From NCBI GenBank assembly GCA_002708445.1, contig PAOB01000054.1:1-61115 (forward strand): a DNA stretch of 61,115 nt. The letters run 5' to 3'. The position numbers and the translations under genes were made by a program. Shown here one piece after another: positions 3,614 to 61,115 of the stretch (positions within the stretch are counted from its first letter, which is position 1; each line of letters begins with the position of its first letter). The notes beneath the pieces were generated by a model that saw nothing but the letters and a program-made list of their open reading frames with translations, ran no database searches and was not told the origin of the DNA. The DNA is from Candidatus Arcticimaribacter sp. GTDB taxonomy: Bacteria > Bacteroidota > Bacteroidia > Flavobacteriales > Flavobacteriaceae.

Positions 3614-4624
3614 TTATATTTGTGCAGATTTAACTGTCTTCACAATCCTTGCAGCAATTTTGTAGGGATCACCATTAGATGCTGGTCTTCGGTCTTCTAA
3701 CCAACCTTTCCAGTTATTCTCAACAGTAATAATCGGGATTCGAATAGAAGCTCCACGATCAGAAATTCCATAACTAAAGTCTGAAATGGAAGCTGTTTCA
3801 TGAAGACCTGTCAAACGTTGTTCGTTGTATTGTCCGTAAACTTCGATGTGTTCTTTAGTAACGGGTCTGAATGCTTCACAAATCTTTTCATATATTGCTT
3901 TGTCTCCGCAAGTTCTTAAAGTTGTATTAGAGAAATTAGCGTGCATTCCAGAACCATTCCAGTCTCCTTTTACAGGTTTTGGGTGGTATTCGATGTAGTA
4001 ACCGTATTGCTCAGTCAAACGATCTAAAAGATAACGTGCAACCCAGATTTCATCACCTGCTTTTTTTGCACCTTTAGCAAATAATTGAAATTCCCATTGT
4101 CCACTTGCTACTTCTTGATTGATTCCTTCGAAGTTTAGACCTGCATCAATACAAAGGTCTGCATGCTCTTCAACGAAGTCTCTTCCGTGTGTGTTTTTTC
4201 CACCAACAGAACAGTAGTACATACCTTGTGGACCTGGATATCCTCCTACAGGGAAGCCTAGAGGAAGTTGAGTTTCTTTATCCATGATGAAATACTCTTG
4301 TTCGAATCCGAACCAAAAGTCGTTGTCATCATCGTTAATCGTTGCTCTTGCATTTGATTCATGAGCACTTCCATCAGCGTTTAAAACTTCAGTCATTACT
4401 AAAAATCCGTTTCTTCGAACAGGATCTGGATAAATTGCAACAGGCTTTAGCAAGCAATCCGAAGATCCTCCTTCGGCTTGTAGTGTTGAAGAACCGTCAA
4501 ATGACCATACTGGACATTCCTCCAGAGTTCCATTAAAATCTTCAACTACTTTTGTTTTACTACGTAAATTGGAAGTAGGTTTGTAACCATCCAACCAAAT
4601 ATACTCTAATTTAGATTTGCTCAT
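3614..4624 (-). CDS. Glutamine synthetase type II (GSII, eukaryote-like)
   Basis: The 336-aa protein catalyses ATP-dependent condensation of glutamate and ammonia. It is much shorter than GSI (about 470 aa) and has the GSII hallmarks: an N-terminal beta-grasp segment (EYIWLDG, WSFDGSST), the glutamate/metal motif FGFEQEYF near residue 106, and the ATP-binding motif NGSGMHANFS near 217-226. The C-terminal part ends in SIRIP...LEDRRPASNGDPY, which carries the arginine and glutamate that shape the active site. It lies divergently from a GSIII gene, and both share a regulatory region. Bacterial GSII is known in Bacteroidota. No adenylylation-type regulation is expected for this class. Confidence 0.95.
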   Translation of the reverse strand: MSKSKLEYIWLDGYKPTSNLRSKTKVVEDFNGTLEECPVWSFDGSSTLQAEGGSSDCLLKPVAIYPDPVRRNGFLVMTEVLNADGSAHESNARATINDDDNDFWFGFEQEYFIMDKETQLPLGFPVGGYPGPQGMYYCSVGGKNTHGRDFVEEHADLCIDAGLNFEGINQEVASGQWEFQLFAKGAKKAGDEIWVARYLLDRLTEQYGYYIEYHPKPVKGDWNGSGMHANFSNTTLRTCGDKAIYEKICEAFRPVTKEHIEVYGQYNEQRLTGLHETASISDFSYGISDRGASIRIPIITVENNWKGWLEDRRPASNGDPYKIAARIVKTVKSAQI

Positions 4625-4649
4625 AATTATATTTTTTACTTAATGAATA

Positions 4650-4657
4650 CAAATTTA
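4650..4657 (-). promoter_or_regulatory. -7 box of GSII promoter
   Basis: The minus strand reads TAAATTTG, a perfect TAnnTTTG, with a start point expected near 4644, about 20 bases before the ATG. No TTG sits at the usual -33 spacing. Instead a TACCCC element (4687-4692) lies 30 bases upstream, suggesting an activator-dependent promoter. Confidence 0.6.
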
Positions 4658-4670
4658 ATTTTTTTGACAG

Positions 4671-4697
4671 TAGGGTTCTTTTTTATGGGGTATAAAT
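4671..4697 (-). promoter_or_regulatory. Putative nitrogen-regulon operator, site A
   Basis: The minus strand reads TATACCCCATAAAAAAG, i.e. TACCCC, two bases, then an A-tract. The same core occurs at 4726-4750 and at two places upstream of glnK-amt (18669-18690 and 18766-18790). The core begins 30 bases upstream of the GSII -7 box. The binding protein is unknown; this is inferred from the shared sequence. Confidence 0.45.
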
Positions 4698-4725
4698 CTT
4701 AACATAGTTATTAACTTTTATTAAT

Positions 4726-4750
4726 AACCTATTTTTTAGGGGGGTAAATT
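4726..4750 (-). promoter_or_regulatory. Putative nitrogen-regulon operator, site B
   Basis: The minus strand reads TACCCCCCTAAAAAATAGG, which matches the glnK upstream site C at 16 of 19 positions by eye. It is partly palindromic (CCTA...TAGG). It lies between the GSII and GSIII promoters, about 55 bases upstream of the GSIII -7 box. Confidence 0.45.
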
Positions 4751-4801
4751 AAATTTTACGTAAAAATTGCATTGAAATTACCTCAGATTTTAAAAAATAA
4801 A

Positions 4802-4809
4802 TACCTTTG
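4802..4809 (+). promoter_or_regulatory. -7 box of GSIII promoter
   Basis: TACCTTTG is a perfect TAnnTTTG match, 26 bases before the GSIII ATG. A TTG at 4772-4774 is 27 bases away, longer than normal spacing, so a helper protein may be needed here too. Confidence 0.6.
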
Positions 4810-4835
4810 AACTAACATTTTTAACAACCCAAACA

Positions 4836-7022
4836 ATGAATTCAATCCGATTCAAAGCCTTAAATAAATTAGTAAATAGAAAAGCAAATATCACAGACAC
4901 GGATCATTCAGTCGCTCCCCAATTTGCTAAAAATGTTTTTAATGACATAGTACTGCAACGTTCTCTCAATCAACAAGCCTACGATGAGGTTTCCAAGGCA
5001 ATTTTTAAGGGAACAAAAATATCAAGATCTCTAGCAGATCAGATTGCTGCTGCCATGAAATCTTGGGCGCGTTCTAAAAATGTCACACATTACACACACT
5101 GGTTTCAACCTCTAACTGGAGCAACAGCAGAAAAACATGAATCCTTTTTTGATTTATCTGATAATTCAGAGGCCATTGAGCGTTTTGATGGAAGTCAATT
5201 GGTGCAGCAAGATCCCGATGCTTCTAGCTTTCCCAGTGGTGGAATCAGAAACACCTTTGAAGCAAGAGGATACACTGCTTGGGACCCAACTTCTCCTGCT
5301 TTTATTTATGGAAAAACACTTTGTATTCCAACGATTTTTGTCTCATACACAGGAGAGGCGTTGGATTACAAAACACCCCTTTTGCGATCTACCTCTGCTC
5401 TAGATAAAGCAGCTACAGATATTGCAAAGTTTTTTGATAAAAACACCCTAAAAGTATCTGCAACCTTGGGATGGGAACAAGAATACTTTTTGGTAGATCG
5501 AACTCTTGCAGCTTCTCGTCCTGATTTGATTTTGACTGGCAGAACCTTGATGGGGCACGAGTCATCCAAAGGACAACAATTAAATGATCATTATTTTGGT
5601 TCAATTCCTCCGCGAGTATTATCATTTATGCAAGAATTGGAACACCAGAGCTTGGTTTTGGGAATACCTGTAAAAACTCGACACAACGAAGTTGCTCCAG
5701 CACAATTTGAATTGGCACCAATTTATGAAGAAGTCAATTTATCAATAGACCACAATGCGCTTCTTACAGATTTGATGAACAAGATTGCAGAGAAACATAA
5801 TTTTACCGTTCTTCTTCACGAAAAACCTTTTTCTGGAATCAACGGATCAGGAAAACACAACAATTGGTCGCTTAAAACCAATACTGGAATTAATTTACTC
5901 AGCCCCGGTAAAACTCCAATGAATAATTTACAATTCCTGACCTTTTTTATTAACACCATTGCTGCTGTTATGAAACACGAATCTTTACTTCGAGCAAGTA
6001 TCGTATCTGCGAGTAATGAATTGCGTTTGGGAACCGATGAAGCTCCACTTCCAATAATTTCTGTTTTTATTGGAGAACAACTTACCGATGTTCTCAACAA
6101 TTTAGAACAAGTTTCGAAAGGGAAATTATCCCCAAAAGAGAAAACAGATTTAAAACTCAATGTAATTGGAAAAATTCCAGAAATATTACTTGACAACACA
6201 GATCGAAATAGAACCTCTCCTTTTGCTTTTACTGGTAACAAATTTGAGTTTAGAGCTGTGGGGTCAAGAACAAATTGTGCTAAGCCGATGACGGTTTTAA
6301 ATTCAATTGTTGCTGAACAATTGATTGATTTCAAGAAAAAAGTAGATGTACATCTTCAAAATCCAAAGATGAAAAAAGATGATGCTATTTTTAATGAGTT
6401 ACGGGATTCCATTAAATACATACGAACCATTCTTTTTGAAGGAGATGGATACAGTGATTCGTGGATAAAACAAGCTAAAAAAAGAGGTTTAAGCCCCTTA
6501 ACATCCACACCAGATGCCCTTTTGGAGTACAGTTCTAAAAAAAGTGTTGAGTTATTCAAAAATTTAAATGTATTCAGTAAAAGAGAACTTGATGCACGGA
6601 TAGAAATAGATCTACAGCAATACATTCTTACCCTACAAATAGAAGGCAGAACCCTAGGAGATATTGCTCGAAATCACATCATTCCAACAGCAATTCAATA
6701 TCAAAATACATTGATTGACAACGTAAAAGGGCTTAAAGAAATTTACTGCTCTAGTTTTGAGAAGTATGCAAAAGAACAAATGCTGTTGATTGAACGTATT
6801 TCAGGGCATATTGAGCAAATCAATACTGGGGTAAGCGATATGATTGCCGAACGCAAGAAATCAAACCAAATTAAAGACAATTCTGATAAAGCAAACGCCT
6901 ATCATACTCAAGTAAAGCCTTATTTCGATTCCATCCGATATCATTGTGATAAACTTGAACTCTTAGTTGATAATTCTAAATGGCCTTTGGCAAAATACAG
7001 AGAACTCCTTTTTTCACGTTAG
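4836..7022 (+). CDS. glnN: Glutamine synthetase type III
   Basis: At 728 aa this is the large GSIII class of glutamine synthetase, typical of Bacteroidota and some cyanobacteria. Visible signatures are the N-terminal GSIII region (THYTHWFQPLTG, near 90), the glutamate/metal motif GWEQEYFLVDR near residue 211, NEVAPAQFELAPIYEE near 290, and the ATP motif GSGKHNNWS near 337. A long C-terminal helical extension is specific to this class. It makes glutamine from glutamate, ammonia and ATP as a dodecamer of large subunits. It is transcribed away from GSII across a shared 211-base region with candidate operator sites. The start is supported by the promoter 26 bases upstream. Confidence 0.97.
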   Translation: MNSIRFKALNKLVNRKANITDTDHSVAPQFAKNVFNDIVLQRSLNQQAYDEVSKAIFKGTKISRSLADQIAAAMKSWARSKNVTHYTHWFQPLTGATAEKHESFFDLSDNSEAIERFDGSQLVQQDPDASSFPSGGIRNTFEARGYTAWDPTSPAFIYGKTLCIPTIFVSYTGEALDYKTPLLRSTSALDKAATDIAKFFDKNTLKVSATLGWEQEYFLVDRTLAASRPDLILTGRTLMGHESSKGQQLNDHYFGSIPPRVLSFMQELEHQSLVLGIPVKTRHNEVAPAQFELAPIYEEVNLSIDHNALLTDLMNKIAEKHNFTVLLHEKPFSGINGSGKHNNWSLKTNTGINLLSPGKTPMNNLQFLTFFINTIAAVMKHESLLRASIVSASNELRLGTDEAPLPIISVFIGEQLTDVLNNLEQVSKGKLSPKEKTDLKLNVIGKIPEILLDNTDRNRTSPFAFTGNKFEFRAVGSRTNCAKPMTVLNSIVAEQLIDFKKKVDVHLQNPKMKKDDAIFNELRDSIKYIRTILFEGDGYSDSWIKQAKKRGLSPLTSTPDALLEYSSKKSVELFKNLNVFSKRELDARIEIDLQQYILTLQIEGRTLGDIARNHIIPTAIQYQNTLIDNVKGLKEIYCSSFEKYAKEQMLLIERISGHIEQINTGVSDMIAERKKSNQIKDNSDKANAYHTQVKPYFDSIRYHCDKLELLVDNSKWPLAKYRELLFSR

Positions 7023-15961: not shown

Positions 15962-16963
15962 TTAAAAAGAGTAAATTGCTGCTAGAACAAATGATGAAAT
16001 ATTATCTTCCAAAGCAGCAGTGTCTCCAAATATTTCAGAAGAAGCAGTATCGATTCTGAATTCTGGTTTGATTATTAGGTTACCAGAAGAAAAGCTACCT
16101 GTGATTGTAAAAGCATTCAAGTCTAAATCATCTGCTGCTGTTCCGTCTGAAGTACTAAAAAGTTCGCCACGGAAACCAAGGCTGAAAGAATCAGATAAAG
16201 CAAGTTGAGGGTACAAAGCTACTCCAGAAAAACCTGCATCACCCTCTAGAGAGGTAGTGGTAGCGTTTATTCCTAAGTAAAATTTTTCTGAAAAGTTAAA
16301 CCCTCCTGTGTAATCAAATTGTGTGTAGTTATCACCACTCAATAAATTAATGTACTGACCATAAAGACCAAGCTGTAAACCAAAGTATGTTTCATCTGTT
16401 TCAGCGTACTCGGTTTCGTCAGTTGTGTTCATAATAGCAGCCATAAAAGAAATATCATCGGATATCGCTATGTCTGCTTTTAAACCCGTGTGAGAAAACG
16501 GACCTGTTGAGAACATGTACGAAGTAGAGTAGTTAAAGTTTGCTGCTGGTGCAATAACTTCATATCCTAAAAATGTGTTGAAGTTACCTAAGGTCAAAGT
16601 AAATTTATCGCTTATGTTGTAGTATGCATACAATTGGTTAATGATACTTGAAGACCCATTTCCTTCAGATCCAAATACTGCAGCTTCACCTCTAGGACCA
16701 TAGACTAAATCTGCTACGAAACCATGTTTTTCACCTTCATATGATAAGATGATGTTAGCCATACCCAACGCAAATCCAGGGAGGTCTGCAAAAGATGTTG
16801 GTGGAGCTTCTCTATTACTTCTGTAATAAGTGTCTATGCTTCCGCTTACACTGAAAGTAGGTTCCTCTGTTGTTTCCTCAGATGTTGCCTCTGCTTCCTG
16901 TGCATAAGTTGTTGCGGTTGCAAGTAAGGCAAGTGTTAAGATAGTTGTTTTAAAAAGTTTCAT
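15962..16963 (-). CDS. Outer-membrane beta-barrel (porin-like) protein linked to ammonium transport
   Basis: The 333-aa product has a cleavable signal peptide (residues 1-21, TTYAQ) and an acidic linker (EAEATSEETTEEP). A barrel of about a dozen or more amphipathic strands follows and ends in FVLAAIYSF, with a terminal Phe. It resembles the Bacteroidota beta-barrel porin family (BBP2-like/DUF1597) often found beside amt. It is the third gene of the glnK-amt operon, 27 bases after amt, and a strong terminator follows. I infer that it aids uptake of ammonium or small nitrogen compounds through the outer membrane. Confidence 0.82.
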   Translation of the reverse strand: MKLFKTTILTLALLATATTYAQEAEATSEETTEEPTFSVSGSIDTYYRSNREAPPTSFADLPGFALGMANIILSYEGEKHGFVADLVYGPRGEAAVFGSEGNGSSSIINQLYAYYNISDKFTLTLGNFNTFLGYEVIAPAANFNYSTSYMFSTGPFSHTGLKADIAISDDISFMAAIMNTTDETEYAETDETYFGLQLGLYGQYINLLSGDNYTQFDYTGGFNFSEKFYLGINATTTSLEGDAGFSGVALYPQLALSDSFSLGFRGELFSTSDGTAADDLDLNAFTITGSFSSGNLIIKPEFRIDTASSEIFGDTAALEDNISSFVLAAIYSF

Positions 16964-16990: not shown

Positions 16991-18238
16991 TTAATGTTGG
17001 TTTAGTCTAAAGTCAGCATAAGCATCCATTCCGTGTTCAGCTAAATCAAGACCTTTTAATTCTTCTTCTTTTTCTACTCGAATACTTCCTCCAGAAAGAA
17101 GTTTAACTATGAAGAGTAAAATAAAGCTGCAGATTACACAGAAAGCTCCTACAATTCCGACTCCAGCAAGTTGTATGATAAATTGATCAAATCCAGCCAT
17201 TGCTCCAAAAATCCCAACTGCTAAGGTTCCCCATATTCCACAGATAAGGTGCACTGCAACAGCTCCAACTGGATCATCTAACTTAAGTTTGTCAATTAAA
17301 GAGATACCAAGAACAATTATGATACCAGCTATAATACCAATCAAGATGGCGTCGGTTGGACCCATTTGATCTGCACCTGCAGTAATTCCAACTAATCCAC
17401 CGAGCACACCGTTCATAAACATTGTTAAATCAAAGTTTTTGTAAAGGATATTTGAGAAAATAGCTGAGGCTACACCTCCTGCTGATGCTGCTAGACATGT
17501 AGTAACAAGAGTTAAAGAAGTTAATTCTGGGTCTGCTGAAAGAACTGATCCACCGTTAAATCCAAACCATCCTAACCAGAGGATAAGGACACCTGCAGCA
17601 GCTAATGGTAAATTGTGACCTGGTAATGCTCGAGGAGTTCCATCAGCATCAAATTTTCCGATACGTGCACCAAGAAGATAAATAGCAACTAATGCTGCCC
17701 ATCCACCAACTGAATGTACTAAAGTTGAACCTGCGAAATCATAGAATCCCATCGCATCAAGGAATCCACCTCCCCATTTCCAAGATCCTACTATTGGGTA
17801 AATTAATCCAACATAAAGGATTGCAAATATCATAAAACTATTAAGTTTGATACGCTCTGCAACTGCTCCAGAAACAATAGTAGCTGCTGTTGCAGCGAAC
17901 ATTCCTTGGAATAAAAAGTCGGTCCACCAAGTGTAACCACTATCGGCATATGCTGTTGTCATTCCTCCTTCGGGAGCGGCAATTCCAAAACCTGCAAATT
18001 TTAAGATACCGAGAGCGCCATCTTCAAATCCAGGATACATAAGGTTGAAACCCCCAAGTGCATAAAGTAAGAGTCCTACTGTAATCACAAAAAAGTTTTT
18101 GAATAAAATGTTGATTGTGTTTTTTTGTCTAGTTAGCCCTATTTCTAAAAAAGAAAATCCAAGATGCATGAAAAATACTAAAGCTGTACAGATCATCATC
18201 CAGACATTATTTGCGGTAAAAAGTGCTGTTGTTTCCAT
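16991..18238 (-). CDS. amt: Ammonium transporter
   Basis: The 415-aa protein is an Amt/Mep/Rh channel with eleven predicted helices. Diagnostic segments are GFSFLEIGLTRQKN near residue 27, the Amt signature DFAGSTLVHSVGGWAAL near 166 with the first pore histidine, and AVHLICGIWGTLAVG near 330 with the second. It moves ammonium across the inner membrane and is normally gated by P-II binding. The glnK gene lies 32 bases upstream in the same operon, fitting that control. It lacks a cleaved N-terminal signal peptide. Confidence 0.97.
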   Translation of the reverse strand: METTALFTANNVWMMICTALVFFMHLGFSFLEIGLTRQKNTINILFKNFFVITVGLLLYALGGFNLMYPGFEDGALGILKFAGFGIAAPEGGMTTAYADSGYTWWTDFLFQGMFAATAATIVSGAVAERIKLNSFMIFAILYVGLIYPIVGSWKWGGGFLDAMGFYDFAGSTLVHSVGGWAALVAIYLLGARIGKFDADGTPRALPGHNLPLAAAGVLILWLGWFGFNGGSVLSADPELTSLTLVTTCLAASAGGVASAIFSNILYKNFDLTMFMNGVLGGLVGITAGADQMGPTDAILIGIIAGIIIVLGISLIDKLKLDDPVGAVAVHLICGIWGTLAVGIFGAMAGFDQFIIQLAGVGIVGAFCVICSFILLFIVKLLSGGSIRVEKEEELKGLDLAEHGMDAYADFRLNQH

Positions 18239-18270: not shown

Positions 18271-18609
18271 TTAGTTAAGTGTACTTCCACCACTTTCTCC
18301 TGTTCTGATTCTAATCGCATCATCTATTGTTGACACGAAAATTTTCCCATCTCCAACTGCACCTGTTCCAGCTGCCTCTGTAATAGCCTTGATAGTTCGA
18401 TCTAGAAATTCATCGTTAACTACAATTGCTAAATGTCTTCTTTGAATGTCCGAGGTACTGTAAGAAATTCCACGGTAAACGTGTCCTTCTTTTTCATTTC
18501 CCACACCAGTTACATCCCAGTAGCTGAAAAAGTTTACCTCTACTTTATGAAGAGCATCTCTTACATCTCCAAATTTTGATTTGCGAATAGTCGCTTCTAC
18601 TTTTTTCAT
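18271..18609 (-). CDS. glnK: P-II nitrogen regulatory protein with atypical T-loop
   Basis: The 112-aa trimeric P-II protein reads 2-oxoglutarate, ATP/ADP and energy state and gates the Amt channel. The C-terminal signature GAVGDGKIFV and IRIRTGE near 83-103 are intact. The T-loop departs from the norm: where enterobacterial P-II has YRGAEYMVDFLPK, this protein has YRGISYSTSDIQRR, and the loop is one residue shorter before the YRG. The tyrosine corresponding to the uridylylation site is retained (Y50). It is the first gene of the operon, with a TATTTTTG promoter and two TACCCC elements upstream. Confidence 0.95.
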   Translation of the reverse strand: MKKVEATIRKSKFGDVRDALHKVEVNFFSYWDVTGVGNEKEGHVYRGISYSTSDIQRRHLAIVVNDEFLDRTIKAITEAAGTGAVGDGKIFVSTIDDAIRIRTGESGGSTLN

Positions 18610-18636: not shown

Positions 18637-18644
18637 CAAAAATA
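18637..18644 (-). promoter_or_regulatory. -7 box of glnK-amt promoter
   Basis: The minus strand reads TATTTTTG, a match to TAnnTTTG, about 28 bases before the glnK ATG. The only upstream TTG (18660-18662) is spaced 15 bases, shorter than usual. A TACCCC element lies 32 bases upstream, the same geometry as at GSII. Confidence 0.55.
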
Positions 18645-18668
18645 CTTTCATTTTAATATCAACATTAA

Positions 18669-18690
18669 AACTTTTGGGGTAAAATCTGTA
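18669..18690 (-). promoter_or_regulatory. Putative nitrogen-regulon operator, site D
   Basis: The minus strand reads GATTTTACCCCAAAAG. The TACCCC core (18676-18681) is 32 bases upstream of the glnK -7 box, nearly the same as the 30 bases at GSII. The A-tract after the core is short, so this is the weakest of the four copies. Confidence 0.4.
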
Positions 18691-18765
18691 ACTTTTGTAT
18701 TATTTTTAATTTTTAGCATATAAAATTAAGGGTATGTTTAAAATATTATTACTTATTTGAAATTA

Positions 18766-18790
18766 AACCCTATTTTTTTAAGGGGTAGAT
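18766..18790 (-). promoter_or_regulatory. Putative nitrogen-regulon operator, site C
   Basis: The minus strand reads TACCCCTTAAAAAAATAGGG, close to site B between the glutamine synthetase genes. It is partly palindromic (ACCCT...AGGGG). It lies about 150 bases upstream of the expected glnK start point. Confidence 0.45.
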
Positions 18791-61042: not shown

Positions 61043-61115
61043 TACAACGAAGAGTTTGATCCTGGCTCAGGATGAACGCTAGCGGCAGGCTTAACACATG
61101 CAAGTCGAGGGGTAA
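61043..61115 (+). rRNA. 16S rRNA, 5' end (cut by window edge)
   Basis: The last 73 bases contain the universal 16S start AGAGTTTGATCCTGGCTCAG (61051-61070), followed by GATGAACGCTAGCGGCAGGC and TTAACACATGCAAGTCGAGG. The GGCAGGCTTAACAC form and the GGGGTAA that follows are typical of Flavobacteriia. Only the beginning is in the window. Confidence 0.98.

Follow-up and report, generated by a model that had tools for sequence, protein, structure and literature searches.

Genes and probable operators at the GSII/GSIII and glnK promoters

The window, meaning the whole stretch of 61,115 nucleotides that was analysed, is a contig of a Flavobacteriaceae genome (Candidatus Arcticimaribacter sp., G000; 1.56 Mb, 65% complete). 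Two glutamine synthetase genes, GSII on the minus strand and GSIII on the plus strand, were observed as a divergent pair whose names were borne out by domain searches, and the best named relatives of GSIII were mostly from Flavobacteriaceae. Genes for a PII protein (glnK), an ammonium transporter (amt) and a porin were observed further along the window. The features at both places are given below, with operator scores from the position weight matrix (PWM) described after them.

3614 to 4624, minus strand: GSII glutamine synthetase gene (NCBIfam GlnII 4.6e-119, under the curated cut-off; Pfam Gln-synt N and C domains)
4650 to 4657, minus strand: GSII -7 box TAAATTTG, read in the sequence; spacing conserved in relatives
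4671 to 4693 (centre 4682), no strand: proximal GSII operator, PWM -1.3; degenerate, the TACCCC arm alone fits
4724 to 4746 (centre 4735), no strand: distal GSII operator, minus-strand reading TACCCCCCTAAAAAATAGGTTAT, PWM 16.7
4802 to 4809, plus strand: GSIII -7-like box TACCTTTG; distance to the centre of the distal operator 67 bp
4836 to 7022, plus strand: GSIII glutamine synthetase gene (Pfam GSIII_N 2e-74)
15962 to 16963, minus strand: BBP2-type porin gene downstream of amt (Pfam BBP2 1.9e-57)
16991 to 18238, minus strand: amt, ammonium transporter gene (Pfam Ammonium_transp 1.2e-110)
18271 to 18609, minus strand: glnK, PII protein gene (Pfam P-II 1.6e-20)
18637 to 18644, minus strand: glnK -7 box TATTTTTG, read in the sequence
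18659 to 18681 (centre 18670), no strand: proximal glnK operator, weak, PWM 9.2
18713 to 18735 (centre 18724), no strand: middle glnK operator, weak, PWM 5.4; 52 bp to the distal centre
18765 to 18787 (centre 18776), no strand: distal glnK operator, minus-strand reading TACCCCTTAAAAAAATAGGGTTT, PWM 22.2, the top score in the window

An earlier note on this DNA had described two copies of a TACCCC plus A-tract element between GSII and GSIII, two more upstream of glnK-amt, and a perfect promoter box at GSII. All of these were recovered. The GSII/GSIII copies are TACCCCATAAAAAAG at 4692-4678 and TACCCCCCTAAAAAA at 4746-4732, both read on the minus strand; those upstream of glnK start at 18787 and 18681, with a weaker third between them (centre 18724); and the box lies at 4657-4650 on the minus strand. 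As a definition of the element this was half right: the TACCCC arm is real, but it is only one arm of a 23-bp palindrome, TACCCCYWWWWWWWRGGGGTA. Its conserved unit, TACCCC(C)TA-N5-TAG(G)GGGTA, was seen in glnK and GSII regions with their upstream DNA from 60 relatives and in GSIII regions from named genomes. A symmetric PWM built from 110 sites placed most of its information at C and G positions 6 to 8 bases off centre, around an A/T centre.

The PWM was trained on glnK and glutamine synthetase regions, so that scores there arise partly by construction; independent tests came from a PWM built without the window's own genus (63 sites) and from GSIII loci outside the training set. With the former, the distal glnK site at 18776 ranked first (23.3) and the distal GSII site at 4735 second (17.5) of all places in the 61 kb. 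The maxima of 60 simulated windows averaged 13.7 and reached 21.8. The site at 18776 thus exceeds every simulated window and that at 4735, by score alone, does not; the identification of 4735 as a putative operator rests on its position and conservation. The proximal GSII centre at 4682 lies 53 bp from the distal centre and 25 bp from the -7 box, and the proximal glnK centre at 18670 lies 54 bp from the middle centre and 26 bp from its -7 box. The places of the weak copies were better kept in relatives, with scores of 13.2 to 17.8 at the proximal GSII place (L122-L125, L129) and 17.4 to 22.7 at the middle glnK place (L092-L095).

Two further observations concern the same stretch. An inverted repeat of the GTTATTAATAAAAGTTAATAAC type was observed at 4706-4729, between both GSII operators, and in other promoters the space between copies has an A-tract near its middle; the repeat could be a bending or third-factor site. 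The contig begins with a tRNA (minus strand, 1-71), and its last 72 bases (plus strand, 61044-61115) are the start of a 16S rRNA gene; assemblies typically break in this way at ribosomal operons.

Copy number, spacing and target genes

Regions picked by gene homology only were used for the copy counts. Of 45 divergent GSII/GSIII regions, 42 had a site scoring at least 13, as did 21 of the 29 regions upstream of glnK; the controls gave 3 of 74 for the regions read in reverse and 3 of 967 for flanking segments. Copies usually numbered two or three, with three in some glnK promoters, and their centres were generally spaced by 51-54 bp, close to five turns of the helix. Every one of the 30 gaps between neighbours at threshold 13 fell within this range, as did 45 of 50 at threshold 9; we rely on this homology-chosen set for gap counts, since the gaps in the loci collected by pattern (L168-L257) were set by the search itself. 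The sampled genomes are related and not independent. Eight glnK regions had no site, and in two of these genomes (G026, G035) the genome's pair was observed before the porin gene, 1.2 to 3 kb off on the same contig.

The single element carried little specificity. Within the window, exact TACCCCNNNAAAAAA occurs at the glnK and glutamine synthetase promoters only, in line with the earlier note's statement that the long version lies solely before nitrogen genes; genome-wide the half-element TACCCCNNNNAAAAA was ruled out as a specific motif, with 9 exact sites against 6 for a reversed control. A single palindrome with up to two mismatches was likewise not specific (106 forward matches against 108 for controls, summed over 19 genomes of the genus). 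Specificity lies in the palindrome pair at fixed spacing, and not in a TACCCC core with its A-tract. Of the 299 genomes of the window's family, 105 matched the pair pattern, against 10 for a reversed control (counted from the table), and 194 had no strict pair. 

At least 101 pair places were listed, and 90 of these were examined, 30 assigned automatically and 60 picked by hand with GC-rich-looking matches left out. A nitrogen gene started within 420 bp in 88 of the 90: glnK (mostly with amt) in 39, the porin in 32, gltB alone in 4, GSII and/or GSIII in 7, and ald in 6. Twenty-eight of the 32 porin-first loci were divergent from gltB, and four loci (L240, L242, L245, L251) were identified as gltB targets with gltB as query. 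The remaining two (L179, L188) had no nitrogen gene and no PWM site at the pair, and no other pathway was found among the 90. Eleven unexamined places among the matches listed comprised 8 that looked like chance and 3 that looked like operators, giving a cautious figure of 88 of 101. The proposal of a nitrogen-regulon operator, limited to nitrogen genes, thus passed this test, and on firmer evidence than the earlier note had available. The porin and ald were targets that surfaced in the search and were absent from the earlier observation, in which gltBD had been suggested as a place to look.

A gene for a BBP2-type porin often accompanies amt-glnK. In the window it lies downstream of amt; its relatives can be the first gene behind the operator in other family genomes, as observed in 32 of the 90 pair loci, and this placement may point to a channel in the outer membrane for small nitrogen compounds. 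The alanine dehydrogenase (ald) loci with the array were L177, L186, L187, L191, L232 and L235, and in all four with scanned neighbours ald adjoined a class I tRNA synthetase gene.

Register with the promoter

Among 135 distinct GSII, glnK and porin promoters, 79 had a TAnnTTTG box starting 24-28 bp downstream of the site, compared with 2 of 135 in a mirror control (80 of 137 against 2 before duplicate removal), which meets the expectation for sigma-A (sigma-ABfr) promoters. Wherever the box was canonical, the proximal centre lay 24-28 bp upstream of it. A further 19 of the 137 promoters had the box at 76-81 bp, as expected if only the distal copy passes the threshold there. No canonical box was found at 24-28 bp in 56 of the 135, and none in the six ald promoters. 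The sets of 137 and 149 promoters used here and below mix homology-chosen and pattern-chosen loci, and two glnK promoters were counted twice; left out of the counts were 52 upstream regions without a site scoring at least 11 (28 glnK, 22 porin, 2 GSII), many of which probably lie inside operons.

Between GSII and GSIII the register is one-sided. Site-to-box distances were 24-27 or 77-79 bp for GSII and scattered for GSIII, which places the array in register with GSII and not with GSIII. The distance from the GSIII box to the distal operator was irregular in relatives, and no clear 10.5-bp period was evident by eye in the GSIII distances. On these distances GSIII was ruled out as the main target of the divergent array, and the array would serve GSII first. 

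In F. psychrophilum the TAnnTTTG box is stated to span -12 to -5 (PMC9723704), which with the 24-28 bp distance puts the operator centres near -36 to -40, -89 to -92 and -144. The earlier note had argued for an activator from a missing -33 TTG at GSII. This argument proved weak, because in F. johnsoniae a -33 element could not be identified (PMC7366714); the fixed distance to TAnnTTTG makes the stronger case.

Taken together, we consider it likely that the intergenic region is an operator array of a Flavobacteriaceae nitrogen-assimilation regulon, bound by a dimeric regulator that remains unidentified, with no expression or binding data yet at hand. The symmetry, copy number, spacing, box distance and targets can be read from the sequence alone; a dimer at each site, binding on one helix face and contact of the proximal dimer with polymerase are inferred. 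In the proposed mechanism, sigma-A promoters with operators near -38, -90 and -144 would drive nitrogen assimilation. The dimeric regulator would bind its copies on one face of the DNA, and at about -38 it may contact RNA polymerase where a -33 element would otherwise be. The upstream copies at about -90 and -144 may add cooperative binding or contacts. Counting against this reading, the GSII proximal site in the window's own genome is a half-site only.

The sign of control is not settled by the sequence. The same array could be bound by a repressor under nitrogen excess, covering the polymerase site at -38, with the upstream copies stabilising the complex by looping or wrapping. Symmetric sites overlapping a promoter are equally compatible with this, cooperative spacing is known from repressor loops too, and the PWM, the box distances and the motif scans all leave the sign unfixed. 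We nevertheless regard a repressor as unlikely, if still a serious alternative, on the inference that its sites would not be expected to have their centres ahead of the -7 box at a near-fixed distance, instead of on the box or start itself, or to extend to about -144. Activation under nitrogen limitation is the more likely of the two, in the absence of expression data. For Prevotella ruminicola, the accessible portion of one study has amtB, glnK, asnB, GSIII-2 and GOGAT genes responding together to ammonium and names no regulator for them (PMC5552732). Nitrogen genes are reported there to be more highly expressed on non-limiting ammonium, which would count against the main reading if P. ruminicola has the operator.

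It is also conceivable that the repeats are RNA hairpins, terminators or merely curved A-tract DNA and not protein sites at all. They are inverted repeats between divergent genes, they carry A-tracts, and in one GSIII locus outside the family (L087) the site is followed by a T run and resembles a terminator. The sites lie upstream of the -7 box and therefore outside the transcript of the gene they precede. No Rfam match was found at the sites, the operator arms were not paired with each other in predicted folds (z -1.85 and -0.31), and the conserved positions are C and G. We give this explanation very little weight.

Known nitrogen systems, range of the operator and candidate regulators

Operators of known nitrogen systems and sigma-54 promoters were observed in 0 to 7 of the 149 operator-bearing promoters, and on these motif scans NtrC/sigma-54, NtcA, Crp and TnrA/GlnR operators were ruled out. 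Tandem Crp/FNR sites (class II plus an upstream site, often called class III) lie at -41.5 and -93.5. The array resembles them in that its proximal dimer site abuts the core promoter and a second copy lies about five turns upstream; it differs in its TACCC..GGGTA arms, its odd centre and a proximal centre at about -36 to -40. The Crp operator TGTGA-N6-TCACA was found in none of the 149 promoters. Among the 12 array-bearing genomes searched, HTH_Crp_2 was not found in two (G007, G312) and was represented by a doubtful fragment in a third (G179), these three being 86-89% complete; on the operator counts, and with no Crp-family protein found in these two incomplete genomes, a Crp/FNR regulon was disfavoured. 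In cyanobacteria, NtcA governs a nitrogen regulon through an operator that replaces the -35 element. The array is similar on paper, as a nitrogen regulon with its operator in place of an upstream promoter element, but GTA-N8-TAC was observed in 5 of 149 promoters only, and the missing Crp-family proteins apply here as well. GlnR/TnrA of Bacilli has the same kind of targets, and its operator differs, with TGTNA-N7-TNACA in 7 of 149 promoters.

Another likeness is offered by the NtrC enhancer sites of proteobacterial sigma-54 promoters, which are 17-bp palindromes with a 5-bp centre. The array shares this core geometry and overlapping target genes, and HTH_8 proteins were present in all 12 array-bearing genomes searched. 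It differs in arm sequence and in having a sigma-A -7 box, many at fixed spacing, in place of -24/-12 elements: GG-N10-GC downstream of the proximal site was observed in 1 of 149 promoters and the NtrC-like GCAC-N7-9-GTGC in none. A single HTH_8 protein was observed in 11 of the 12 genomes (L259-L269) and three in the other (G066). The single protein has the GAFTGA motif, which points to sigma-54 promoters, yet only the one promoter has GG-N10-GC; judged by its length and first residues it apparently lacks a receiver domain. In F. psychrophilum, one sigma-54 regulator has been listed together with lptE, and the roles given for sigma-54 promoters are envelope stress and gliding (PMC9723704). 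An NtrC-type array for a sigma-54 promoter is therefore highly improbable. In sum, we read the array as the mark of a nitrogen regulon whose operator has a sequence code and geometry of its own; its sequence matches no nitrogen operator tested.

We found a wider range for the GSIII site than for the pair. In 80 GSIII loci (757,822 bases), 37 had a site scoring at least 14 within 400 bp upstream of GSIII, and only three such sites were observed elsewhere, including one immediately before a GSII gene (L058). Seventeen of the 37 lay outside the training set, including the terminator-like L087. Among the rest of these seventeen, Bacteroides graminisolvens had a GSIII site scoring 25.7 with a box 27 bp downstream and a half-site alone 53-54 bp further up; no pair was found in either of its two amt loci. 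A Bacteroidales metagenome-assembled genome (MAG), also outside the training set, had a pair 53 bp apart at its GSIII locus (L080). Across a phylum sample the strict pair was observed in 9 of the 41 genomes that belong to the window's family and in 1 of 354 from other families, with none in the control. At amt loci outside the family it was observed in 1 of 28 (19 genomes), namely in a second Bacteroidales MAG (L405, G719), 54 bp apart and just upstream of amt. The one match among the 354 genomes of other families (G488) looked unrelated, as GC-rich tandem inverted repeats (C44:39546-39615 and C75:102404-102471) mimic the pattern. The array, as judged from these scans, is mainly a family feature and the GSIII site ranges wider.

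In the sea and the gut, Bacteroidota play a major part as degraders, and the control of their nitrogen genes appears open. No nitrogen operator or regulator for Bacteroidota was evident among the matches listed for the open-licence literature. The broadest reading, which we rate as likely as not, is that Bacteroidota have their own nitrogen control, through a CCCC(T/A)n GGGG operator and a regulator outside NtrC, NtcA, GlnR/TnrA, AmtR and NrpR; the five-turn array of Flavobacteriaceae would cover uptake, glutamine synthetase, GOGAT and alanine dehydrogenase, and a simpler form would control GSIII in Bacteroides and other orders. An operator with fixed geometry can serve as bait for the regulator, as a readout of target genes and as a predictor of the regulon in other family genomes.

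No regulator gene was recognised beside the operators when 942 neighbouring proteins from 140 loci were clustered all against all, with clusters judged by the first residues of the 45 largest and without a domain search. A candidate is one of two AsnC-like Lrp proteins, here called groups A and B. Lrp/AsnC operators typically have an odd palindrome, an A/T core and copies in phase, features that the array shares, and PF01037 (Lrp/AsnC) proteins were present in all 12 operator-bearing genomes searched. Among 30 lrp loci examined by eye, group B was recognised in all but one of the 12 genomes and group A in 8, and the nearest solved relative of group B was E. coli AsnC (1e-36). The array differs from an Lrp/AsnC system in that its sites did not co-occur with either group outside the family: a close relative of group A or B (E < 1e-25) was observed in 8 of the 11 genomes that have a GSIII site and likewise in 8 of the 11 that lack one, the latter judged at GSIII only, and in 7 of 10 with a site when the terminator-like L087 was excluded. 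Three site-bearing genomes (L049, L052, L059) had no close AsnC-like relative, these being MAGs of unknown completeness, and no operator was found upstream of lrp in any of the 30 loci. An AsnC-like regulator is thus a doubtful candidate. PWM matches in two loci (L278, L279) were taken as chance, as they lie inside lrp coding sequence at the codons for NPKILGY.

The two groups were present together in family genomes (L272-L301, L340-L383). Outside the family, in all 19 genomes with a match, one gene was the best match to both A and B, and the two groups look like the products of one duplication.
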